Shown here: positions 1 to 10,354 of the stretch, one piece after another
Layout of the letters: every line of letters starts with the position of its first letter
Numbering within the stretch: position 1 is the first letter of the stretch
Assembly: GCA_947630785.1 (NCBI GenBank)
Contig: CANRIW010000010.1
Location: 1 to 54,585 of the forward strand
Direction: 5' to 3'
Length of the DNA stretch: 54,585 bases
DNA from: an uncultured Oscillospiraceae bacterium
GTDB lineage: Bacteria > Bacillota > Clostridia > Oscillospirales > Oscillospiraceae
The notes under the pieces: model-generated
What the model was told of the DNA's origin: nothing
Databases searched by the model: none
Seen by the model: only the letters and a program-made list of their open reading frames with translations
Position numbers and translations under genes: made by a program

Positions 1-3000
1 ACGAAGCGGACCTTGCCGCTGGTCAGCACCAGGCCGAACGCGGAGCACACCGCCAGCGCGATCCACAGGCCGAGGTGATTGTTGTCGCCGGTCTGCGGGA
101 CGTCATCCAGCGGCACATCGTCGTCCGGGATCTCGACGTCAGGGAGTTCATCCATGGGCACGTCGTCGTCAGGGATCTCGACGTCGGGGAGCTCATCCTT
201 GGGCACATCGTCGTCCGGAAGGTCGACATCGGGTGCATTATAGGTGTTGTAGACCGTGAAACTCAGGCCGTCGCCGCTCTCCACGACAGACACCGTGTAG
301 TCCGTCGGCACCTCCGCCTCACGCACCGTGAAGTCGGCGTCCAGCTCATCCAGAGCCAGCTGACGGCTCCAGCTCCAGCCGTTCTCCGCGTTCAGCACCA
401 CGGCCTCGTCTACCTCGCCGTTCTTCAGCACCTCCACCGTGATCTCGGTGGGCCGCACGAACTCGTCGTCGCCCACCCAAATCTTCTGCACGCTCAGCAT
501 GGGCACCAGGGGGACTTCGGGCTCCTCATAGGTGTTGGTGATGGTGTAGCTGGTATTGCCGCCGGACACGATGGAAGTATACCCCTCAGGAGCGTTCACC
601 TCGTCCACGGTCCAGGTGTAGTCGTCATCCAGCTGGGTCCACTGGTGGCTCCAGCCGTTGGCCTCGCTCAAGGTCACGACGCCGCCGTAAGCGCTGCCGT
701 TCCGATAGAGCTGGACCTCAACGCTCGCGGGCCGCTGGTCCTCGTGCCCCTCGTCGGCCCACACCTTGTTCACGGAGAGAGCGGTGTAGGTGGGAGTGGG
801 GGTGGGGGTGGGGATCACAGGCGGGGGCGGGGTCTGGGTGTTGGTGATGGTGATGCTGCCGTCCTCATTGGTGGTGTAGGAGGCGTCGTAGCCGGAGTAA
901 GCAACCTCCTCCACAGTGAACTCCTGGTCGCCGGGCAGATCGGTGAAGGTGTAGGTCCAGCTGTTGGCCTCGCTCAGGACCACGGAATCCACAACCGCGT
1001 TGTCGGCGGTCTTGTTGATCAGGTTCACGGTGACCTCAGCGCCCGCAGGAGCGGTGCCGTCGGCCCAAACCTTGTTGACGGTCAGGGACTGGTCCCTGTC
1101 CTCGCCGATGACGATGGGGCTGTTGGAGGAGATAGCGCCGCCGCGTCCGGCCTCATTCTCGATGAAGACGACCTGGGCCTTGCTGGCCGCGTAGAGCTGG
1201 CCTTCCTCGGAGAGAACGCTGTGGGCCGCAAAGGGCTGCTTGGTGCCGGCCAGGATCTCAGCGGAGACAGGAACGGGGGCCTCCGCATTGTAGCGGGCGT
1301 CAGATTCGTCAGCGTACCAGTTCAGATCGTAGCCGCCCAGAGAGCGGGTGGAGAGCTGCATGGTGGAGTTCTCGTTTTTGAGTGTAGGGATGACCTTATC
1401 CGGGTCGCCCATTCCGTTGTAGCGAATGTCGTCGCCGCGGGGCTCGCCGCTGTTACCGTAGATCGCGCCGCCCAGGGTGGAGTAGACCTTGGTCTCGGAA
1501 GTGGGGCAGGCCCAGATGCCGCCGCCGCCCAAGGCGGTGGCCCTATTGCCGGTGATCAGCACGTTAGCCAGATGCAGGGGGTTGGCCATCTCGCCGCTGT
1601 AGTCCAGGCCGCCGCCGACCTTCGCGGTGTTTTTCTCAAACCGGGCAGTACCAAACTCCAGGCTGTTCTCGTCGTACACTCTCAGGCAGAGGCCGCCGCC
1701 ATAGGTAGCGGCAGTATTGCTGGTGAAGGTGTTATCATCCAGGACGACCCCGCCGCTGGTTTTATCAGTGACATGGACATAGGCACCGCCGCCGTAGCCT
1801 CTGCCGCTGTCAGTGATGGCATTGTTTTCGGTGAAGCTGTTCCCAATGATCCGGCAGGGGGTTTCGTAAACACAAACGCCGCCGCCGTAAAGATTCGCAG
1901 TGCCGGTAACCCTGGCTACGTTCTTAGTAAAGGTGTTGCCGGTGACGGCCGCATTTCCGCAAAAATAGGTGAACAATGCGCTGCCATAGCCTGTTTTGCC
2001 GGTGGTGACTACATTCCCGGTGAAGGTATTGTTCTCAACGCTCACAATGGCGACCTTGTTGAGGTAAATAGCGGCAGCCGTGTTCGCGTTTTCGGTAAAG
2101 GTGCTGTCCTTAATGCTCGCGCAATCGAGTTCAACGGCGGTGACCGCGCCCCCGTTTTCGATAAAGGTGCTGTTCTCAACGTTCACACTGTCGCTCTTAT
2201 TGAGGTAAACAGCTATGCCCGTGTTTCCGGTAAAGGTGCTGTTCTTAACGCTCAAGCTGCTACTCGCATTGAGGTATACAGCGGCAGTCTTGCCCGCGTT
2301 TTCGGTAAAGGTGCTGTTCTCAATGTTCAAGCTGCCGCCATTATTGAGGTAAACAGCCGTGCCCGCGCTTCCGGTAATCTCGCAGTTCTGAATATTGACA
2401 ATGGCCTCGGGATCACTCTCATGCCCGCTTCTGACGCTGGCGAAAACGGCAGAGCCAGAACCGCCGAAGTTCTGAATGGTCACATGGTCAAGATTAAGGG
2501 TTCCATTTACATTGAACGCCCGGTCTGTTCCCGCGAAGCAAGAACCGTTAATCGTGCCGTTTTTGACGGTCAGTTCGCTGTTTTCTTTCACCCAAATGAC
2601 ATTGCTGGAAATCGTTACGCCTTCCGCAGCGGTAAGGGACTGGCCGTTCAGGTCGATCGTGATGCTTTTGCCGCTGACATCCAGTCTGGCTTCAAGGGTA
2701 CAAGCATCGGTCAGGGTAATGGTATCGCCAGCATTCGCCATCCGAACAGCCGCCGCCAGGGAAGTGTAGGACACGCCGTCGATCTCGGCCACGCCAAGAG
2801 CGATTTCCTCGGGAATCTCGTTCGCGATGGGCGCGATTTCGGGCTCATCGCCGGCCTGGGTGTTGGCGTCATTCTCGGTATCGTCGCCGATCTCGACGTC
2901 AGCGTCGTCCTCAGTGCCGTCGCCGATCTCGGTGTCGGCGTCGTCCTCGGTGCCGTCGCCAATCTCGGTGTCAGTGTCGTTCTCGCTGCCATCGCCGGTC

Positions 3001-3242
3001 TCACTGCCGTCCTCGGACTTGGTTTCATCTTCGGACTGTAAATCAATCTGCTGCTTATTCTCGCCCTCGTCGGCGGAATCGCCGTTCTCAGTGCTGCTAA
3101 CGATCCCGGAGTTCTCATCCTGGGAATTGAGCCCGGTATCATCCGCCGCGAACACGGTGATGTTGAGCAGACTCACGATCATGACCAGAGCCAGGACCAG
3201 AGAGAGGAGCCGGTTGATCTTCGCAAAAGCCGTGTGTTTCAT
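1..3242 (-). CDS. Large cell-wall-anchored surface protein (beta-helix adhesin with Cna-B repeats), C-terminus cut by window edge
   Basis: The minus-strand frame is open from ATG 3242 to the window edge, about 1080 codons. AAAGGAG sits 9 nt before the ATG. Order seen: signal peptide (MKHTAFAKINRLLSLVLALV..., residues 1-31); acidic linker with 12-residue repeats (about 90-126); a parallel beta-helix region (about 150-640) full of N-x-T-F-T-x-N strand-turn units; three Cna-B/SpaA-like domains, each opening with SLTVNKVW, ALSVNKVW or MLSVQKIW (about 716-800, 820-905, 908-995); an Asp/Pro stalk; then VPQTGD, a hydrophobic segment and basic residues. This is a sortase-type signal with V in place of the usual L. 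It probably acts outside the cell in adhesion. The intergenic stretch up to the recombinase has no convincing promoter, so expression probably depends on the neighbouring invertible segment. A 988-codon frame on the opposite strand is a shadow. Confidence 0.9.
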   Translation of the reverse strand, partial: MKHTAFAKINRLLSLVLALVMIVSLLNITVFAADDTGLNSQDENSGIVSSTENGDSADEGENKQQIDLQSEDETKSEDGSETGDGSENDTDTEIGDGTEDDADTEIGDGTEDDADVEIGDDTENDANTQAGDEPEIAPIANEIPEEIALGVAEIDGVSYTSLAAAVRMANAGDTITLTDACTLEARLDVSGKSITIDLNGQSLTAAEGVTISSNVIWVKENSELTVKNGTINGSCFAGTDRAFNVNGTLNLDHVTIQNFGGSGSAVFASVRSGHESDPEAIVNIQNCEITGSAGTAVYLNNGGSLNIENSTFTENAGKTAAVYLNASSSLSVKNSTFTGNTGIAVYLNKSDSVNVENSTFIENGGAVTAVELDCASIKDSTFTENANTAAAIYLNKVAIVSVENNTFTGNVVTTGKTGYGSALFTYFCGNAAVTGNTFTKNVARVTGTANLYGGGVCVYETPCRIIGNSFTENNAITDSGRGYGGGAYVHVTDKTSGGVVLDDNTFTSNTAATYGGGLCLRVYDENSLEFGTARFEKNTAKVGGGLDYSGEMANPLHLANVLITGNRATALGGGGIWACPTSETKVYSTLGGAIYGNSGEPRGDDIRYNGMGDPDKVIPTLKNENSTMQLSTRSLGGYDLNWYADESDARYNAEAPVPVSAEILAGTKQPFAAHSVLSEEGQLYAASKAQVVFIENEAGRGGAISSNSPIVIGEDRDQSLTVNKVWADGTAPAGAEVTVNLINKTADNAVVDSVVLSEANSWTYTFTDLPGDQEFTVEEVAYSGYDASYTTNEDGSITITNTQTPPPPVIPTPTPTPTYTALSVNKVWADEGHEDQRPASVEVQLYRNGSAYGGVVTLSEANGWSHQWTQLDDDYTWTVDEVNAPEGYTSIVSGGNTSYTITNTYEEPEVPLVPMLSVQKIWVGDDEFVRPTEITVEVLKNGEVDEAVVLNAENGWSWSRQLALDELDADFTVREAEVPTDYTVSVVESGDGLSFTVYNTYNAPDVDLPDDDVPKDELPDVEIPDDDVPMDELPDVEIPDDDVPLDDVPQTGDNNHLGLWIALAVCSAFGLVLTSGKVRF
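108..235 (-). repeat. 45-bp tandem units encoding the Asp/Pro wall-spanning stalk
   Basis: Units at 153-197 and 108-152, plus a diverged upstream partial copy to about 235, encode a 15-residue repeat of the type DELPDVEIPDDDVPM directly before the sorting signal. Such rigid acidic/proline stalks are typical of wall-spanning segments. Confidence 0.75.
2865..2972 (-). repeat. Three tandem 36-bp units in the adhesin gene
   Basis: Units at 2937-2972, 2901-2936 and 2865-2900 encode DTEIGDGTEDDA, DTEIGDGTEDDA and DVEIGDDTENDA. They form an acidic, probably unstructured spacer between signal peptide and beta-helix. Near-identical DNA units make this stretch prone to copy-number change. Confidence 0.85.
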
Positions 3243-3272
3243 CTTGATCTCTCCTTTATTTTTGTTTTCGTC

Positions 3273-3289
3273 TGCCGGGGAGCCCGGCA
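3273..3289 (-). promoter_or_regulatory. Hairpin in the adhesin 5' leader
   Basis: A 7-bp stem (TGCCGGG / CCCGGCA) with a 3-nt loop lies 31 nt upstream of the adhesin start. On the transcript strand it is followed by an A-rich stretch, not a U-run, so it is not an intrinsic terminator. It may affect mRNA stability or translation; no known family is recognised. Confidence 0.4.
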
Positions 3290-3415
3290 TCGTTGGTTGA
3301 TAGGAACTATCTGATCCTCCTCCGCTCTTCCGGGCCTCATCGGAGACATCATTCGAATGAAATGAATAACAGCGGCCGATTTGGGAAACACTTGTAACGT
3401 CTGGCCGTTCCGCTG

Positions 3416-3440
3416 GTCGCAGAGCTCACAACTCTGCGAC
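3416..3440 (-). promoter_or_regulatory. Left recombination site (inverted copy)
   Basis: Two perfect 9-bp arms, GTCGCAGAG (3416-3424) and CTCTGCGAC (3432-3440), flank a 7-bp asymmetric core, CTCACAA on the plus strand. The 9-7-9 layout fits tyrosine-recombinase core sites. It ends 7 bp before the recombinase stop codon. Confidence 0.75.
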
Positions 3441-3447
3441 TTTGGCA

Positions 3448-4410
3448 TTACAGCTCCATTGCTGCCAGCTTCTCCATGTTCGTTCGCTTCAGATCCATGG
3501 AGGAGTGCACGTATCGATTGAGCGTGATGGAGGTGTTGGCGTGGCCCAGGATTTCCGACAAGGTCTTGATCTCAAACCCCACCTCTACGCATCTGGTCGC
3601 GAATGTGTGGCGAATCGAATGGAAGTGTACCCCCTCGATCCCGCAGGCAGCCGTGTATTTTGCCAGCCGTTTCTGCACCTGCCTCGGCTCCATATACCGC
3701 TCCGTACCGGTCAGAAGGAAGGCTGCCGGACAGTGTGGATCGAACTGCGCGCAGAGATCGACCGCGCTGTCCATCAGTGGAATCGTACGCGCCGATGAAT
3801 CGGTTTTGGGTGACCCTATGACCACCTTTGTCTTCCCTCCGCCGGAGCCGTCCAGATCCTGGAGCCGCTGCATCGTTGCCACCACGCGAATCGTTCTGTC
3901 CTGAAGGGAAACGTCGCGCCACCGGAGGGCGCACAGCTCACCGATCCGCAGTCCAGTAGAGAGGGCCAGCAGGATGCCGAACTTACATTCGTCCATATCT
4001 GCCCGGAGATAGGTCGCAAAACGGCGCTGTTCTTCTATAGAGAGCACCCTGGCTTCCTTTTGCAGCTCTCTGGGGTAGCTCACCTCCGCAGCCGTGAAGG
4101 GACCAGGACACTGCTTCGTCATGTGCCTTAAAACAGATTGCAGCACCGCGAGGATGTCCCGCACAGTCTTTGCGGACAGTCCCTCGTCCAGCAGTCCCCG
4201 CTTGAACCGCTCGACCAGCGGGGTGCTGATCCCCGACGGGGCACATCCGCCCAGCTTTGGTATAATGTGTTTGGTCAGAATCGCATTGTATTTCACATAG
4301 GTGGAGTCCTTTACCCTGCCGCGCTCCAGGCGGAGCCATTCCTCGCAGAAAAACGCGAACTTCTGGCGGCCGCTCCTGCGTTTAAAACCGTTACCTCCTT
4401 TACCTGTCAT
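3448..4410 (-). CDS. Tyrosine recombinase/integrase enclosed by inverted recombination sites
   Basis: 320 residues when started at the ATG at 4410, which has GGAGGT 7 nt upstream; the in-frame ATG at 4425 has no such site. An N-terminal SAM-like core-binding domain (about 18-110) precedes the catalytic domain. The full catalytic set is visible: R155 (TGLRIGEL), H264 and R267 (HSIRH), H290 (LGH) and Y300 (NRYVH). It resembles phage-type integrases used for site-specific recombination. The stop codon lies 7 bp from the left site, and its promoter is inside the same segment, so it would move with any inversion. No excisionase or other phage gene accompanies it. The most likely job is inverting its own segment; a decayed integrative element is the alternative. 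Confidence 0.92.
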   Translation of the reverse strand: MTGKGGNGFKRRSGRQKFAFFCEEWLRLERGRVKDSTYVKYNAILTKHIIPKLGGCAPSGISTPLVERFKRGLLDEGLSAKTVRDILAVLQSVLRHMTKQCPGPFTAAEVSYPRELQKEARVLSIEEQRRFATYLRADMDECKFGILLALSTGLRIGELCALRWRDVSLQDRTIRVVATMQRLQDLDGSGGGKTKVVIGSPKTDSSARTIPLMDSAVDLCAQFDPHCPAAFLLTGTERYMEPRQVQKRLAKYTAACGIEGVHFHSIRHTFATRCVEVGFEIKTLSEILGHANTSITLNRYVHSSMDLKRTNMEKLAAMEL

Positions 4411-4530
4411 GCCTGATACCTCCATTGTTTCTTAGAATACTAAATGTAGACCCAGCGGGAGACCGCGCGCACGCCCCAAAAACCCGGCCCGCGGGGGCTC
4501 TGAGCGGGAGGAAACGTGACGGTCAAGAAA

Positions 4531-4559
4531 TTTATAGAAAATTTCTTTAAAAATCCCAA
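4531..4559 (-). promoter_or_regulatory. Recombinase promoter
   Basis: Minus strand: -35 TTGGGA (4559-4554), 17-bp spacer, -10 TATAAA (4536-4531). It lies about 120 bp upstream of the chosen start. The leader contains a GC-rich stretch followed by TTTTT (around 4477-4497), which could be a weak attenuator. No terminator follows the recombinase gene before the adhesin gene on the same strand, so read-through is possible. Confidence 0.6.
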
Positions 4560-4567
4560 AAAAACTA

Positions 4568-4596
4568 TTGACATCCAGAGCTGTAAGTTGTAGGAT
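4568..4596 (+). promoter_or_regulatory. Promoter for the c-di-GMP riboswitch leader
   Basis: -35 TTGACA (4568-4573), 17-bp spacer, -10 TAGGAT (4591-4596), predicted start near 4603. A TATAAT at 4621-4626 is part of the aptamer P1 helix, so the upstream pair is the likelier promoter. It points right, away from the adhesin in this orientation. Confidence 0.7.
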
Positions 4597-4621
4597 ATGG
4601 TTGAAAAGTGAATTGCACGAT

Positions 4622-4714
4622 ATAATATGAAAAGGGCAAACTTGCTGAAAGGCAAGGGCGCAAAGCCATGGGTCTAAGGTCTTTAACGACTACGACAGCC
4701 GGTTACCATGTTAT
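4622..4714 (+). promoter_or_regulatory. Cyclic di-GMP-I (GEMM-I) riboswitch aptamer
   Basis: Conserved blocks appear in family order: GGGCAAAC (4634-4641); a hairpin CUUGCU/GGCAAG capped by a GAAA tetraloop (4647-4650); GCGCAAAGCC (4658-4667); GGGUCUAAG (receptor side); and GCCGGUUACC at the 3' side (4698-4707). P1 is formed by AUAAUAU (4622-4628) with AUGUUAU (4708-4714), seven pairs including one G-U. This matches the class I c-di-GMP aptamer, which senses the bacterial second messenger. A terminator follows 28 nt downstream. The aptamer is inside the invertible segment, so what it controls depends on orientation. Confidence 0.92.
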
Positions 4715-4742
4715 TTCCTGCGTGCGCAGGATAATGTGTGAT

Positions 4743-4774
4743 AACCGCTGATGGCTTCCATCGGTGGTTTTTTC
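4743..4774 (+). terminator. Riboswitch expression-platform terminator
   Basis: A 12-bp stem, AACCGCTGATGG (4743-4754) with CCATCGGTGGTT (4758-4769), ends in a run of six T. Its 5' arm (TAACCGCTG, 4742-4750) can alternatively pair with CAGCCGGTTA (4696-4705) of the aptamer, with one bulged C. Aptamer folding and an antiterminator would thus be mutually exclusive, which suggests ligand-induced termination. Confidence 0.85.
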
Positions 4775-4863
4775 ATTTAGCGCAACAAAACGATCCCCTG
4801 ATCTTATCCAGGTTTTCTCTCGTTCCCGCCTGAGCGCAGGAAACTTCCCAAAAGAGAATTTTG

Positions 4864-4888
4864 GCCGCAGAGTTGTGAGCTCTGCGAC
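4864..4888 (+). promoter_or_regulatory. Right recombination site
   Basis: Arms GCCGCAGAG (4864-4872) and CTCTGCGAC (4880-4888) flank the core TTGTGAG (4873-4879). This is the reverse complement of the left site except for one base in the outer part of the inner arm. The core orientation is opposite to that of the left site, which predicts inversion of the DNA between them. Confidence 0.75.
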
Positions 4889-4926
4889 ACGGTGATAGAT
4901 GATACCGTTTCCCGTTCATTAACGCG

Positions 4927-4966
4927 ACGCCGAAGGGTCGTTTAGGCAACCCTTCGGCGTTAGATT
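4927..4966 (+). terminator. Terminator outside the right recombination site
   Basis: A perfect 12-bp stem, ACGCCGAAGGGT (4927-4938) with ACCCTTCGGCGT (4949-4960), is followed by TAGATTTT. It would stop riboswitch transcripts that leave the segment rightwards in the present orientation. No start codon with a ribosome binding site was found between 4774 and this hairpin. Confidence 0.75.
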
Positions 4967-5020
4967 TTATAGGCTACATGTTTCCCGCCCCTCTTTAGGA
5001 AATCTTGCCTTAAAAACTGA

Positions 5021-5054
5021 TTGACTGAAGTGAATACTTATGGTATACTATAAT
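5021..5054 (+). promoter_or_regulatory. Promoter of the small transcription unit
   Basis: -35 TTGACT (5021-5026), 17-bp spacer, -10 TATACT (5044-5049), overlapped by TATAAT (5049-5054). It is followed by a 100-nt unit ending at the terminator at 5154-5182. Confidence 0.75.
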
Positions 5055-5094
5055 TGATATAAATTTTTTGATGTGGCCATACGGAGGTCTGAAT

Positions 5095-5154
5095 ATGGAA
5101 TTTAACCCATCCGGCCATGGAGCGAAAAGCAGAGGAAATGCCTGGGTAGACTGA
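5095..5154 (+). CDS. Tiny ORF, 19 residues, of unknown function
   Basis: The ORF encodes MEFNPSGHGAKSRGNAWVD and has GGAGG 7 nt before the ATG, its own promoter upstream, and a terminator that begins at the stop codon. The peptide is polar, has no membrane segment and matches nothing I recognise. The RBS region (TGGCC...GGAGG) can pair with CCATCC...GGCCA inside the ORF, so translation may be regulated by RNA structure. The unit may instead be a small RNA or a leader for the metallophosphoesterase downstream. Existence of the transcription unit is better supported than its coding nature. Confidence 0.45.
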   Translation: MEFNPSGHGAKSRGNAWVD

Positions 5155-5182
5155 TGAGTCCGTTGTTGCGGACTCATTTTTT
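5154..5182 (+). terminator. Terminator of the small unit
   Basis: Stem ATGAGTCCG (5154-5162) with CGGACTCAT (5169-5177), 6-nt loop, then a T-run. It separates the tiny ORF from the metallophosphoesterase gene, so that gene needs read-through or another promoter. Confidence 0.85.
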
Positions 5183-5262
5183 AATGATTAAATGCGTTAG
5201 CGTAAGCGATTGCAGAGTTTAATTTTCTGACAGGCATGACTCGAATCTGAGGGGGGAAGAAG

Positions 5263-6039
5263 ATGGTTTTTGTTACAGGTGACTGCCATGCGGATTTCAG
5301 TAAATTTGAACCGAAAAATTTCCCGCAGCAGAAAAGCATGCACAGGAGCGACATTATGCTTGTGACGGGGGATTTCGGCGGCATATGGCGGCTTGAGGCG
5401 GCGGAAGAGGAAAACTATTGGCTCGATTGGCTCTCCAAAAAGAAATTTACCACCTGTTTTGTGGACGGCAACCACGAGAATTTCGACCGTCTGTTGAGCG
5501 GAGAGTTTCCCACCGTGAACTTTCACGGCGGCAAGGCCAAAAAGATCCGCAATGGCGTCTACTACCTCATGCGTGGAAACGTGTATGAGTTTGAGGGCAA
5601 AAAGTTCTTCTGCATGGGCGGGGCGTCCTCTTACGATATCAAAGACGGGATTCTTGATCCGGAGCGCTTCCAGGACGTGGCCTCGTTTGTGTCAAAATGG
5701 AAACGGTGGGAAAAGCAGGGCAAAAAGTACCGGATCAACCATGTCTCATGGTGGGAAGAGGAGATCCCCCATGCTGAGGAAATGGTGTTTGCGGAGCAAA
5801 ATCTCGCAAAACACGATTTCACAGTGGACTATGTGATTTCACACTGCCTCCCGACCAGCGTCGCCGTGTCAATCTTTGGCGACCTCTATCAGCCGGACGC
5901 GCTGACAAACTTCTTTGGGCACCTGATCCGGGACAAGGATCTTGCCTTTCTGGAGTGGCACTGCGGCCATTATCACCGGGAACTGTATCATCTGCCAGGA
6001 TACTTTGTACACTATAATGACATTACGCGCCTGTTGTAA
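5263..6039 (+). CDS. Calcineurin-like metallophosphoesterase
   Basis: 258 residues. The two-metal phosphoesterase motifs are present in order: GDCHAD (D7, H9), GDFGG (D37), GNHEN (N70, H71), ISHCLP and GHYHR (H236, H238). The family hydrolyses phosphomonoesters or phosphodiesters of proteins, nucleotides or nucleic acids; the substrate cannot be told from sequence. It has no signal peptide and is presumably cytoplasmic. The start follows a G-rich ribosome binding site (GGGGGG, 8 nt upstream). It stands alone between the small unit and convergent minus-strand genes. Similar stand-alone enzymes occur in phages and clostridial accessory regions. Confidence 0.85.
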   Translation: MVFVTGDCHADFSKFEPKNFPQQKSMHRSDIMLVTGDFGGIWRLEAAEEENYWLDWLSKKKFTTCFVDGNHENFDRLLSGEFPTVNFHGGKAKKIRNGVYYLMRGNVYEFEGKKFFCMGGASSYDIKDGILDPERFQDVASFVSKWKRWEKQGKKYRINHVSWWEEEIPHAEEMVFAEQNLAKHDFTVDYVISHCLPTSVAVSIFGDLYQPDALTNFFGHLIRDKDLAFLEWHCGHYHRELYHLPGYFVHYNDITRLL

Positions 6040-6144
6040 GGCAGTTGAAGGCGCAAATCAAAAACACATACTTTAGTAATTCCACATCTCTGAAATCCCT
6101 TCTTTGCCACAGGGACTCCAATGATTCATTGGTAAACTGCGGCC

Positions 6145-6535
6145 TTATTCTATCCACGCTCTCGCCAGGTCGAAGTTGCTGATGGTATACCCGTTCATGG
6201 CGTTGGCATTGCCCAGGGGGAGGCTGCCGCAGGAGAAGTACATCGTCACGCTGTACCCCGGTACGAGTTCCTGAGCCTCTGCCGCCATCTTCTCGCATTC
6301 GGCCCGGATGGTGGAGAGGTCCATGGACTTCCACCACGCTATGAACTCCGCTTTGCTCATGGAGCCGGAGTAGTCGGCGTTGAAAATCTTTTCGGTGCCG
6401 TAGTTGGTAACGGGGGTTTCCGTGACCATCCACTGGCTGGAGAAGGAGGACACACTGGGCACGGGAGCCGGAGCAGAGGATCAGGGCGGCGACAGCGCCC
6501 ATGAGGAAAGAAACGAGCCGGGTTTTGGTTTTCAT
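6145..6535 (-). pseudogene. Frameshifted small secreted or lipoprotein gene
   Basis: An ATG at 6535 begins a signal-like sequence (MKTKTRLVSFLMGAVAALIL, then CSGS), but that frame soon becomes nonsense. The neighbouring frame encodes a coherent soluble domain (PSVSSFSSQWMVTETP... to ARAWIE, ending at 6145). Joining them needs a shift of one base near 6470, within the run CTGCTCCGG on the coding strand. No good ribosome binding site precedes 6535. The domain family is not recognised. It looks like a recently broken gene, although a sequencing indel would look the same. Confidence 0.55.
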
Positions 6536-6570
6536 GATATGTACCAAGTATTTAGTATTGTGGGACCTGT

Positions 6571-6921
6571 TCAGAAATAAATCGATTCGTTCAGGATCAC
6601 CTCCTCCGCGGCGTTGCGGATGTTGTTCATGGCAACCACCCAAGCCATCTGATCCTGGGCCTTGAGCTGCTCTGTGACACCCTGCTCCGCCGCCATCTGC
6701 CGGGTCAGCCGCTCAAGCATTTCTGTCGCCTGCCGGTCGATCTCCGCAAGGTGGGCGCTGAGTTTGCCTGAAAGAAGCATCCCGGTGTAGATCCCGTTGC
6801 GGTACCGCTTCAGGTAATCCCTCCGCCTTACACCCCAGATGCCCGTCGGGATGTCCTCCGGGGCAGCCAGGTCTGGGATCAGGTAGTCGCCCTCCCGGTG
6901 GTACGTCAGGTTTGCGCTCAT
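6571..6921 (-). CDS. tnpV: TnpV-family transposon-encoded protein
   Basis: 116 residues with AAAGGAGG 7 nt before the ATG. The sequence follows the TnpV pattern known from clostridial transposons: LTYHREGDYLIPDL near the N-terminus, GIWGVRRRDYLKRYR, an alpha-helical middle (GKLSAHLAEIDRQA) and a C-terminal QMAWVVAMNNIRNAAEEVIL. The biochemical role of TnpV is not settled; it usually travels with transposons. No transposase is seen here, so this is probably a remnant or passenger. It supports past mobile-element activity between the invertible locus and the core genes to the right. Confidence 0.75.
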   Translation of the reverse strand: MSANLTYHREGDYLIPDLAAPEDIPTGIWGVRRRDYLKRYRNGIYTGMLLSGKLSAHLAEIDRQATEMLERLTRQMAAEQGVTEQLKAQDQMAWVVAMNNIRNAAEEVILNESIYF

Positions 6922-6992
6922 TTGTTTGACCTCCTTTCTGTGATGGCTTTATTGTAGCAGTCACCGTTTCAAAAGACGAATGTGCGAAAAAG

Positions 6993-7036
6993 AAAACGCT
7001 CAGAAAAGCATTTGATGCCTTTCTGAGCGTTTTTTG
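6993..7036. terminator. Bidirectional terminator
   Basis: A 14-bp stem, AAAACGCTCAGAAA (6993-7006) with TTTCTGAGCGTTTT (7020-7033), has T-runs on both sides. It lies downstream of the peptidase gene (minus strand) and separates it from tnpV. Confidence 0.8.
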
Positions 7037-7122
7037 TCTTTACAATGCCTGAAATTCAGTTTGTCGAAATTACTTCCTAATTGCGCCGGTCCACCGGCGG
7101 GCGCTCTTCGCAAATCCCGGGA

Positions 7123-9528
7123 TCACTTTCCGACAGTCGGGCGCACGAGGGACATGGGGCCGGCGGGCGGCGCGGAAACGCCCGCGGGCGCCGGTTCGAC
7201 GGCGGCGGCATCGTCACCGAGGAGCTCGGTAAGCCTCACCAGCACCGCGGCAAGCTCGGCCCGGTCGAGGGTCTCCCCGGGGGACAGCATACCGTCGCTG
7301 TCTCCCTGGTAGATGTCGTTGGCCACGCACCACTCCATGGCCGTCACCGCCCAGGGGGATATCTGGTCGGCGTCGGCAAAGCTGAGGGCTGCGGGCGCCG
7401 CTCCGCCGATCTCCAGATGATACGTGTTATACACGATCTTGGCCATCTCCTCGCGGGTGACGGCTCTGTCAGGGCGGAAGGTGCCGTCGCCGCAGCCGTC
7501 GACGATGCCGTTCTCAGCGGCCCAGTTCACGGCGTCCTCGTACCACGCGCCGGCCTTCAGGTCAGTGAAGGCGGACCCCACGGCCTCCTGCCCCCCCTCC
7601 AGACGCCACATGATAGTGGCGGCCATGGCGCGGGTGGCATCGCTGAGGGGACTGAAGCTGTCATCGCTGACGCCCAGCATCAGTCCGTTTTCATAGGCCA
7701 GGCAGACGTCCTCAAAGAACCAGTCGCTGCGGGAGACATCGTCGAAGTAGGTGAGCCGCTGGAAGTCACGGTAGCGGGTCTCCACATCCATGGCCTCATA
7801 GATCGCGGGGCACAGCTCCCCGATGTATTCCGGGGAGACGGGGTTGTCCATGCCAAGCTGTTTGAAGCTCTCCTGGAAGCTGACGGTGGCGGGCAGGGCC
7901 ACAAACTTCAGATACTCGTCCAGCGCTTTGAAGTAGTCCCCGCTCCGCTGGGCATCCAGCCAGAAGGCGAAAGCGCCGGCGGCGGAAGTGGAGTAGCTGA
8001 TATAGTACATGGGGTACGTGAAGTTGTGGGGAATTGTGGCCCAGACGGTACTCTGGTAGTCAGAGAACTCGTCCCCCTCCTCTATCATACCGTAGTCGAC
8101 GGCCAGCTGGAGACATTTGGCGTTCAGGTCCTCCACCGTTACCCCCTCGGTGGTGAACGCGTACTGCTGCCATTCGTCAAACATGGCTCCCTGGATAATG
8201 GCGTAGAGCAGATTGTCCACCTGGTAATCCAGCACGGACTGGCCGTCCTCCTCGCCGAAGATCTCGGGATACCAGTGGGAGAACATCAGCTCCATGCCCT
8301 GGGAGTGGACCTCATCCGAGTCGTAACTGCTGGACTCATCGTTCCAGCCGGCGGGGTGCCAGTAGAAATAGTTATAGTGCCCGAACTCATGGACGGCGGT
8401 GGTGAAATCGTACAGGTTGTTGGTGGGGGTGTTGAAGAAGAAGGGCGCGCCGTAGCTGGGCAGGATGGCGGTGAACCCGGTGCCGTTCTTGTGTGTGCCG
8501 GCCTCTGTATCGTAGAGGCCGTGCTCCCGCATGTAGGAGAAGGTCTCAGCGAGCTCGCTGGACATCCGGCCGATATAGGGCTCCATCATATCCAGCGCCC
8601 GATCGCCGGTGTAGTCGGCGAAATTGATCTCGTCCGGGAGCAGATAGGTGAGCGTATACATCTGGCTTTCCAGCTCGGGGACATATTCCTTCACGGCCTG
8701 CTCATAGGCCAGGATCTCCTCCGGCGTATAGTCACGGCCATAGCGCTCCTGATAGGCATACTCCACAAAATCGTCATAGCCGTAGGTCCGGGCCAGCCGG
8801 TTGCGGACGTCCAGCAGTTCCAGATAGATGCCGCCCAGCGCGTCGGCCAGTTCGAGGCCGTACCGGTTCTCAAATTCCACATATTGATCACTGGTAATCA
8901 CGCCGAGGTAAAGGAGCTCCTGGGCATCCGCTTCATTCAGCTGCTCTCCGGCGTATTCGATGGTGAAGCCGTTACTGATGACATTGTACTGGTTTTCCAG
9001 CGCGGTCTCACGGGCGGACAGGGCCTTCTGCTCCTCGGTGACGCCGCCGTAGTTCAGAATAGCCTCGATTTCGCTCTCGCTGAGCTGGGCCTGGAGGAAG
9101 GCTCCGCAGGGGGACTTCAGGATGTCCTGGACCAGGAAGTTCCCGACATCTGCCGCCTCTGTATAGACTGTATTCAGGCGGACCGTCTCGCCGGCGGCGT
9201 ATTCGTCGGTCACGTCGTGGGCGCAGCGGATGGAGATCAGGTAATACATGGTGGACAGCTTCTGCATATCCTCGGTGAAGGCGGTGAACAGCTCCTCCAC
9301 CCGGGCGGCGTTGGCCTTGTCGCCCAGCAGGGCGCGGATGGCCTCCGCGGCGGCGGTGAAGGGCTCGGAGTACATCTCCTCATACTTCATGTCGCCGTAG
9401 TCCACATCGGCGTGGTACTGGTCCTCAAAGAAATCAGTTTCCCGGACCGTCCCCGCCGCGAAGGCGGACGGCAGGCAGGCGGCGATCATGCACGCGCACA
9501 GCAGGATCGCGAGCAGGCGCTTTTTCAT
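7123..9528 (-). CDS. Secreted M3-family zinc peptidase with C-terminal SLH domains
   Basis: 801 residues from the ATG at 9528, which has GGGGG 8 nt upstream; the ATG at 9534 is too close to it. Signal peptide (MKKRLLAILLCACMIAACLP...AFA), then an oligoendopeptidase F-like helical domain with the zinc motif HEFGH (H380-H384) and a downstream glutamate in HSQGMEL. From about residue 600 there are SLH repeats (SFTDLKAGAWYEDAVNWAAE, SFADADQISPWAVTAMEWC) that attach proteins to the cell wall. M3 oligopeptidases are usually cytoplasmic, so this is a surface version, probably cutting peptides outside the cell. Confidence 0.88.
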   Translation of the reverse strand: MKKRLLAILLCACMIAACLPSAFAAGTVRETDFFEDQYHADVDYGDMKYEEMYSEPFTAAAEAIRALLGDKANAARVEELFTAFTEDMQKLSTMYYLISIRCAHDVTDEYAAGETVRLNTVYTEAADVGNFLVQDILKSPCGAFLQAQLSESEIEAILNYGGVTEEQKALSARETALENQYNVISNGFTIEYAGEQLNEADAQELLYLGVITSDQYVEFENRYGLELADALGGIYLELLDVRNRLARTYGYDDFVEYAYQERYGRDYTPEEILAYEQAVKEYVPELESQMYTLTYLLPDEINFADYTGDRALDMMEPYIGRMSSELAETFSYMREHGLYDTEAGTHKNGTGFTAILPSYGAPFFFNTPTNNLYDFTTAVHEFGHYNYFYWHPAGWNDESSSYDSDEVHSQGMELMFSHWYPEIFGEEDGQSVLDYQVDNLLYAIIQGAMFDEWQQYAFTTEGVTVEDLNAKCLQLAVDYGMIEEGDEFSDYQSTVWATIPHNFTYPMYYISYSTSAAGAFAFWLDAQRSGDYFKALDEYLKFVALPATVSFQESFKQLGMDNPVSPEYIGELCPAIYEAMDVETRYRDFQRLTYFDDVSRSDWFFEDVCLAYENGLMLGVSDDSFSPLSDATRAMAATIMWRLEGGQEAVGSAFTDLKAGAWYEDAVNWAAENGIVDGCGDGTFRPDRAVTREEMAKIVYNTYHLEIGGAAPAALSFADADQISPWAVTAMEWCVANDIYQGDSDGMLSPGETLDRAELAAVLVRLTELLGDDAAAVEPAPAGVSAPPAGPMSLVRPTVGK

Positions 9529-9578
9529 TGGCATTTCCCCCTTTTAAAGTAAGCGGCGCTCGTGGCAGCGATAAGCTG

Positions 9579-9607
9579 AGTATATCATCCGCCGGCCTGG
9601 CTTGCAA
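9579..9607 (-). promoter_or_regulatory. Peptidase promoter
   Basis: Minus strand: -35 TTGCAA (9607-9602), 17-bp spacer, -10 TATACT (9584-9579), about 50 bp upstream of the start. Confidence 0.7.
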
Positions 9608-9676
9608 GGAAAAACTGCGCGGGCTGCAAAACAGGCTGACGGAACAGCAGATCTTGAAAAAATTTTCCTCTGGCAA

Positions 9677-9705
9677 TAGACGAACGCGCTTTGAAGTGCT
9701 ATAAT
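9677..9705 (+). promoter_or_regulatory. Flavin reductase promoter
   Basis: -10 TATAAT (9700-9705) with a weak -35 TAGACG (9677-9682) at 17 bp. It lies 32 bp upstream of the start codon. Confidence 0.55.
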
Positions 9706-9736
9706 GGAACATCATCATGTAAAGGAGCGATTCCTC

Positions 9737-10354
9737 ATGAATGTACTGATACTCAACGGCAGTCCCCATCCCAACGGCAACACCGCCCTGGCGCTGGCGG
9801 AGATGGAGAAGGTCTTCAAGGAGACGGGCGTGGAGGTCGAGACCGTCCTGGTCGGCAACCAGGCCATCCGGGGCTGCATCGCCTGCGGCCACTGCTTCGA
9901 CCACGACGGCTGCGTGTTCGACGACGCCGTGAACCAGATCGCCCCGAAATTCGCGGCGGCGGACGGTCTGGTGGTGGCGAGCCCCGTGTACTACGCCTCC
10001 GCCAACGGCACGCTGGTGTCTCTGCTGGACCGGCTGTTTTACAGCTGTCACTGCGACAAGCGCATGAAGGTAGGGGCCGCTGTGGCAGTTGCCCGCCGCG
10101 GCGGACTCTCCGCCACCTTTGACGAGCTGAACAAGTATTTCACCATCAACAATATGCCGGTGGCCTCCAGCCAATACTGGAACAGCGTCCACGGACGGCT
10201 CCCCGGCGAGGCCGCCCGGGACGGGGAGGGCCTCCAGACCCTGCGGGTGCTTGCCCGGAACATGGTATTCCTCATGAGGAGCATCGCCCTGGGCAAGGAG
10301 AAATTCGGCCTGCCGGAGCAGGAGGAGCGGATCTCCACCCACTTCATCCGCTGA
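9737..10354 (+). CDS. NADPH-dependent FMN reductase / flavodoxin-fold oxidoreductase
   Basis: 205 residues. AAAGGAG lies 9 nt before the ATG at 9737; an in-frame ATG at 9704 overlaps the -10 box and is unlikely. The N-terminus, MNVLILNGSPHPNGNT, is the FMN phosphate-binding loop of this family. A cysteine-containing segment CIACGHCFDHDGC (about 50-62) is typical of the clostridial iron-sulfur flavoprotein-like members. SPVYYASANG is the second flavin loop. It is probably a cytoplasmic electron-transfer flavoprotein; the physiological substrate is unknown. It stands alone, followed by a 56-bp gap to the PlsY-like gene. Confidence 0.85.
   Translation: MNVLILNGSPHPNGNTALALAEMEKVFKETGVEVETVLVGNQAIRGCIACGHCFDHDGCVFDDAVNQIAPKFAAADGLVVASPVYYASANGTLVSLLDRLFYSCHCDKRMKVGAAVAVARRGGLSATFDELNKYFTINNMPVASSQYWNSVHGRLPGEAARDGEGLQTLRVLARNMVFLMRSIALGKEKFGLPEQEERISTHFIR

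Follow-up and report, generated by a model that had tools for sequence, protein, structure and literature searches.

A probable self-inverting promoter cassette with an internal c-di-GMP-I riboswitch beside a surface adhesin gene of an uncultured Oscillospiraceae bacterium

We analysed a stretch of 54,585 nt (the window) of contig CANRIW010000010.1 from the draft genome (2.17 Mb, 98.49 % complete) of an uncultured Oscillospiraceae gut bacterium (GCA_947630785.1). Near its start, a 1.47-kb segment lying between two inverted recombination sites encodes a tyrosine recombinase and includes an outward-facing promoter followed by a class I cyclic di-GMP (c-di-GMP) riboswitch. This segment is probably an invertible promoter cassette that encodes its own recombinase and brings about phase variation of the adjacent adhesin gene, and, on comparison with homologous loci, it is a derived member of a family of clostridial self-inverting promoter cassettes. 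These relatives lend good support to the cassette and to its inversion. Control of the adhesin by orientation appears likely, and it is uncertain whether c-di-GMP controls it in this host.

Recombination sites and recombinase

The window contains an exact 23-nt inverted repeat with copies at 3416–3438 and 4866–4888, precisely as described in a first-pass annotation made from the sequence, and this pair is the longest of the three exact inverted repeats of at least 15 nt that are spaced 0.3–5 kb apart in the 54.6 kb. Each copy belongs to a palindrome in which 9-bp half-sites, matching one another at 8/9 and 9/9 positions in the two sites, flank an asymmetric 7-bp core, an arrangement typical of the crossover sites of tyrosine recombinases. 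The left site, read as a 25-mer, is GTCGCAGAG-CTCACAA-CTCTGCGAC and the right site is its inverted partner; at this length the two differ at one mismatch, in the outermost bases. When up to 2 mismatches were allowed, the site pattern was confined to these two positions in the draft genome. Because the cores lie in opposite orientation, recombination is predicted to invert the segment. The arrangement is therefore not that of elements of the Tn916/Tn1549 type, which excise and integrate at direct sites, and is that of an inverton, with inverted sites bracketing a promoter and a recombinase that is catalytically complete according to Pfam, alignment and structure model.

The recombinase is encoded by an open reading frame (ORF) at 3448–4425 on the minus strand, with a likely start at 4410 judged by eye from the ribosome site, and matches PF00589 (E 4.6e-27). 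Its catalytic residues R155, H264, R267, H290 and Y300 are invariant across 42 aligned sequences, window included, which upholds the earlier description of the enzyme as intact, and the mean predicted local distance difference test (pLDDT) score of the structure model is 84. The best match, both in sequence and in the PDB, is Tn1549 Int (6EMZ, 6EN0), which was crystallised as residues 82–397 without its arm-binding domain. In this respect the construct resembles the naturally arm-less enzyme of the window, though Tn1549 Int is the integrase of a conjugative transposon and not an invertase.

A family of self-inverting clostridial cassettes

The family set comprised 81 loci, namely the window and the best 80 further recombinase loci from genome contigs, many of the latter from rabbit gut according to their record titles. 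A locus was scored as paired when an inverted pair of 23-mers with no more than 4 mismatches bracketed the recombinase gene, and direct pairs, scored likewise, served as the control. The first-pass annotation had raised the possibility that homologous loci would prove to be excisable elements bounded by direct repeats; instead, inverted pairs were found in 61 of the 81 loci, window included, and direct pairs in 11. Excision between direct repeats was rejected as a general reading, as several of these 11 pairs are of the CCGTCA type and those of L095, L110 and L112 arise from the palindromic site itself.

A recombinase gene inside the segment is the rule among the paired loci. There are 56 distinct core sequences among the 61 loci, and in 46 of these loci the two cores are identical (7/7 positions), a figure that follows in part from the similarity-based choice of pairs; some of the misses arise where the palindrome finder picked another frame. 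Outward promoters were scored with our own weights over 200 nt (440 nt in the window) against dinucleotide shuffles, and in most paired loci (50/61) they stood above the shuffles (z > 1.5), with the -10 a median of 31 nt from the site. The window has the features that define the family, a recombinase gene and a divergent outward promoter between sites of the TCGCAGAG type, and the corresponding distance in it is 269 nt, compared with the median of 31, the gap being filled by the riboswitch and its terminator.

An N-terminal arm-binding domain together with arm-type repeats is common, though not universal, in the family, and the window lacks this combination. In six of the seven homologues compared, two repeats of the GCCGTCA or CGCAGTCA type lie 12 nt apart upstream of the recombinase gene and another copy lies just after its stop codon; L136 has weaker variants. 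We infer that these repeats are arm-type sites for the N-terminal domain. Matches to the recombinase at E 1e-40 were present in 13 of the 99 genomes searched, the host's own included, and the homologues in viral contigs are no more than 47 % identical.

When 24 neighbouring proteins, chosen by eye, were compared with Pfam (some domain matches being below the curated cutoff), several were found to include domains of surface type, namely SLH, DUF7601, DUF7604, VWA, cohesin/dockerin or pilin N-methylation domains. In L030, two S-layer-domain proteins with the same N-terminus (3063–5792 and 7281–9785) are encoded divergently on either side of a related recombinase gene, an arrangement that resembles an either/or switch. 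In L127, owing to a 424-nt inverted repeat (5105–5528 and 7006–7429), the cassette has the same pilin-like N-terminus on its left and on its right; the pair chosen for this locus falls within a longer repeat, although the locus has a site pair as well. Extra tandem copies of the site are found at one or both cassette ends in L067, L072, L073, L075, L076 and L103, among others.

Inversion in relatives

The cassettes of L075 and L076 share 97.2 % identity over 1,485 nt in the same direction, and their flanks, which include an S-layer-domain gene, share 95.4 % identity over 5,629 nt in the opposite relative direction. As near-identical cassettes are thus found in opposite orientations, this cassette family flips in nature. 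L077/L081 and L077/L108 are also opposite in orientation, at lower identity. Opposite orientation was seen in three of seven pairs picked from a wider flank comparison, where 15 of the 39 similarities listed join opposite sides of the recombinase. In six of the 61 paired cassettes a contig ends within 150 nt of a site, and mixed orientations in the sample could cause such ends. The proposal that recombinase, riboswitch and both sites move as one invertible unit gains support from the paired loci and from homologues in both orientations, and inversion would be expected at the window locus also.

The riboswitch and its expression platform

An outward promoter with a class I c-di-GMP riboswitch had been proposed from the letters of the sequence, and this was borne out: the aptamer scored 82 bits with RF01051 (cutoff 35), and promoter and terminator both read rightward. 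The copy at 4625–4710 is the only c-di-GMP-I riboswitch detected in the host genome. Within the aptamer, 4664–4667 pair with 4701–4704, and this is mutually exclusive with an antiterminator formed by 4701–4705 and 4742–4746, which in turn competes with the terminator stem when the transcript is folded. Folding gave ligand-free antiterminator probabilities of 0.67, 0.64, 0.99 and 0.99 at transcript ends 4748, 4752, 4757 and 4760, respectively, and a terminator probability of 0.96 at transcript end 4769. The full terminator stem dominates once it is made, and the antiterminated outcome would therefore depend on timing. As aptamer and antiterminator exclude one another, ligand binding should cause termination, which predicts an OFF switch. 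This presumed response to c-di-GMP agrees with that of the class I riboswitches of Clostridioides difficile, for which a figure legend gives down-regulation by ligand (PMC9286219).

A genome of the same genus (G007; L239 5745–5828) has a homologous aptamer, antiterminator and terminator in a leader that precedes transglutaminase, T2SSF, T2SSE and sortase genes. This leader differs from the window in that its promoter is fixed; no inverted repeat of at least 14 nt was found in the 12 kb examined. Because G007 has both the aptamer and the platform, the riboswitch module of the window probably came from a leader of this kind. The outward promoter may derive either from the cassette family or from a G007-like leader, as the 8 bases ahead of the -35 match those of cassette L067 at 8/8 and, over the upstream 25 bases, G007 matches as well as the best cassette (17/25).

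The first-pass annotation proposed looking in other genomes for the same order of recombinase, riboswitch and adhesin. A model derived from 23 c-di-GMP-I aptamers was used to scan 96 sources (some of them incomplete, and L017 and L067 apparently the same contig); none besides the window had a riboswitch inside a cassette, and the 11 closest homologues (69–74 % identity; L064–L073 and L130) have none in the DNA examined. L117 was discarded as a second example, as its riboswitch lies approximately 4.3 kb outside the cassette. Also discarded were L145 and L146, from the 25 of 80 viral loci scanned, where the riboswitch stands before mobile-type genes with no matching repeats; in these viral contigs the c-di-GMP-I-like aptamer (7587–7662) lies behind a related recombinase gene and, by eye, a repressor-like gene. 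In 29 other riboswitch loci, covered with 1.5 kb on each side, a recombinase homologue and a bracketing repeat never occurred together: a distant integrase (23 % identity) is present in L058, and L047 and L053 have bracketing repeats of 13–14 nt without an integrase.

Proposed mechanism and alternatives

The adhesin is predicted to include a right-handed beta-helix and three Cna_B stretches (Pfam), and has a hydrophobic, signal-peptide-like N-terminus and, by eye, a VPQTG sortase-type motif. In the mechanism that we propose, the cassette's own recombinase would act on the two 25-bp inverted sites and flip the segment. In the sequenced orientation the promoter would fire away from the adhesin gene, toward a stretch in which no gene was recognised before 5263, and this would be the OFF state. 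After a flip, transcripts from the same promoter would run across the riboswitch and the left site and on through the adhesin leader, giving the ON state. That the promoter would then face the adhesin gene, with approximately 460 nt between transcription start and ATG, was already part of the first-pass annotation, and coordinates, strands and arithmetic agree with it; likewise, no promoter-like site was called on the minus strand over 3200–5300, in keeping with its remark that the adhesin has no evident promoter of its own. The riboswitch would form a second gate, at which ligand would keep GGUU in the aptamer and free AACCG, so that the terminator forms. Given that no diguanylate cyclase was found in the host, the default state of this gate would be open, which would leave orientation as the main control.

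Several observations weigh against this account. No inverted pair was found at up to 4 mismatches in 20 of the 81 loci, some of them cut by contig ends, at least one of the pairs counted (L135) is not site-like, and 11 of the 61 outward promoters fall short of z > 1.5. Six of the 24 neighbours have no Pfam match, and others are a helicase, a TadZ/AAA protein and a DUF4367 protein; among the cassette neighbours more broadly, several look by eye like TetR regulators. Both orientations were seen for homologues and not at the window locus, and the other four of the seven pairs compared are collinear. Searches at E 0.001 found no GGDEF, EAL, PilZ or SMODS domain in the 98.49 %-complete host genome. 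Finally, the arm-binding domain of the window recombinase is deleted, in frame, and the arm-type repeats are mostly gone, with one CCGTCA upstream and none downstream, when a motif search detected the domain in at least 64 of the 80 homologues. Several of the 16 missed by that search do show the later part of the domain; L097, L114, L120 and L124 look arm-less by eye.

These losses, together with the gap of only 7 nt between the recombinase stop codon and the 25-bp site, would fit a frozen cassette, in which the recombinase no longer flips the segment and the adhesin gene is either permanently OFF or driven from another place. However, the reading frame is open, the catalytic residues are invariant and the repeats that form the two sites remain exact; the joint loss of domain and arm-type repeats is what a change of mode would lead one to expect; two of the homologues that look arm-less, L114 and L124, retain paired sites with 2 and 1 mismatches, respectively; and the arm-less Tn1549 Int construct was used in strand-exchange assays (PMC5871717). 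We consider a frozen cassette unlikely. Somewhat less probable is that the adhesin is ON in the sequenced orientation through read-through from the recombinase gene, and that a flip turns it off. The two genes are co-directed and lie 205 nt apart, and the terminator scan called nothing on their strand in this gap, but it is the outward promoter that is conserved among the paired homologues, and no promoter was called for the recombinase gene.

We give little credence to the view that the repeats bound a small element that is mobile as a whole. Related cassettes do adjoin many unrelated genes, and the first 8 kb of the window differ in composition, but recombination between inverted sites that have identical cores gives inversion and not excision, and L075 and L076 are the same locus on the side compared for both and differ by orientation. 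A chance inverted repeat beside an integrase gene has a negligible probability, as the repeat is the longest exact one of the window in its spacing class and homologues refute the idea, the same arrangement being present in 61 of 81 loci. Phase variation of the adhesin gene by a self-encoded invertible cassette is the account that we prefer.

c-di-GMP in the host

The same domain searches found GGDEF, EAL, PilZ and SMODS in 8, 6, 5 and 3, respectively, of 14 known genomes used as positive controls, and GGDEF is present in 27 of 42 genomes of the host's genus. Among 400 genomes of the family, 110 have a c-di-GMP-I riboswitch, detected with strict filters by which weak matches are lost, and 242 have GGDEF. 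Riboswitch carriers without GGDEF number 4 of the 110 (G000, G007, G145 and G247), only G000 and G007 being >90 % complete; the genome with the leader homologous to that of the window, G007, is thus among those with no GGDEF match. The first-pass annotation placed the adhesin under a c-di-GMP riboswitch. The riboswitch is present and would read toward the adhesin gene after a flip, but control by c-di-GMP in this host is doubtful because none of the four domains was found. The riboswitch may sense nothing here, with read-through as its default, or may sense ligand from another source.

That the contig is foreign and was mis-binned was rejected, as two 20-kb pieces of the window correlate at 0.992 and 0.986 in tetranucleotide composition with 20 pieces of other contigs, which themselves range over 0.960–0.992, and GlnA is 97 % identical to that of G030 from the same genus. 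A same-genus stretch (L018) scored 0.964, so composition does not separate a close relative and leaves room for a contaminant of the same genus.

Comparison with known systems

As in the window, the Hin segment of Salmonella holds a promoter together with the recombinase gene. Hin belongs to the serine recombinases and is under the control of an enhancer, with no riboswitch, and the window enzyme is a tyrosine recombinase. A recombinase gene inside its own invertible segment is an old theme, familiar from Hin (PMC5903667, PMC3798978).

In C. difficile, the riboswitches of flgB and cmr lie upstream of and outside the invertible segment and the recombinase, RecV, acts in trans (PMC8844915, PMC7446863), a contrast also drawn in the first-pass annotation and confirmed here (PMC8844915), whereas in the window the riboswitch lies inside, and riboswitch, promoter, recombinase gene and sites would invert together. 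The flgB riboswitch terminates on ligand (PMC8844915, PMC7446863), as is predicted for that of the window. Clostridial inverton group 139, with invertase group 35, also has a nearby tyrosine recombinase, and one of its invertons shifts with surface attachment (PMC11892184). The passages on this group mention no riboswitch; group 139 is perhaps this cassette family. No riboswitch inside an invertible segment, and hence none inside a self-encoded inverton, appeared in the excerpts of the open-licence literature on invertible promoters, invertons and riboswitches that were searched.

Flanking DNA

Features of the cassette and its surroundings are listed in Table 1. The gene at 5263–6039 is presumably phosphoesterase-like, judging from its motifs, and is preceded on the plus strand (5021–5262) by a promoter (TTGACT-17-TATACT) and a leader in which a tiny ORF and a strong terminator (5153–5178) lie. 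This leader has no Rfam match even at E 1, and nothing similar was present among the loci compared. Relatives of the gene in the genus (L225–L238) often follow what look by eye like serine recombinase gene ends, which suggests that they are cargo of mobile elements. Positions 1–8000 of the window correlate at 0.864 in tetranucleotides with the rest of the genome, compared with 0.960–0.992 for other pieces, and are possibly imported DNA, though this piece is shorter than the others and includes a repetitive gene.

Table 1. Features of the cassette and flanking DNA (positions in the window)
Feature	Position	Strand	Basis
Surface adhesin gene, 1080 aa shown, runs off contig start	3..3242	-	Pfam; N-terminus; motif by eye
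Adhesin 5' leader, outside cassette	3243..3415	-	Ribosome site by eye; scan gave no promoter-like site
Left recombination site, 9-bp half-sites, core CTCACAA	3416..3440		Repeat and pattern searches
Tyrosine recombinase gene, 320 aa from likely start	3448..4410	-	Pfam, alignment, structure model
Outward promoter, TTGACA-17-TAGGAT	4568..4596	+	Promoter scan
c-di-GMP-I riboswitch aptamer	4625..4710	+	RF01051
Predicted antiterminator pairing	4701..4746	+	Folding
Intrinsic terminator of expression platform, 12 bp	4743..4769	+	Terminator scan, folding, G007 comparison
Right recombination site, core TTGTGAG, inverted relative to left site	4864..4888		Repeat and pattern searches
12-bp hairpin met by rightward riboswitch transcript in present orientation	4927..4960	+	Repeat search; not called as terminator
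Presumed phosphoesterase-like gene	5263..6039	+	Name from motifs; no Pfam match at 0.001

Implications

If the account preferred here is correct, DNA inversion, a form of bet-hedging, and riboswitch sensing would share one transferable 1.5-kb unit, and the recombinase would decide which cells listen to a second messenger. It is conceivable, though very unlikely, that this is a portable flipping switch with its own metabolite sensor in a lineage that no longer makes c-di-GMP by GGDEF, the sensor answering an unrecognised source, a relative of the ligand or the c-di-GMP of other cells; were that so, only flipped cells would sense their neighbours. The riboswitch carriers without a recognisable diguanylate cyclase (4/110) pose a testable puzzle. 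More generally, clostridial self-inverting cassettes can be found from sequence by their recurring sites, promoter and arm repeats.

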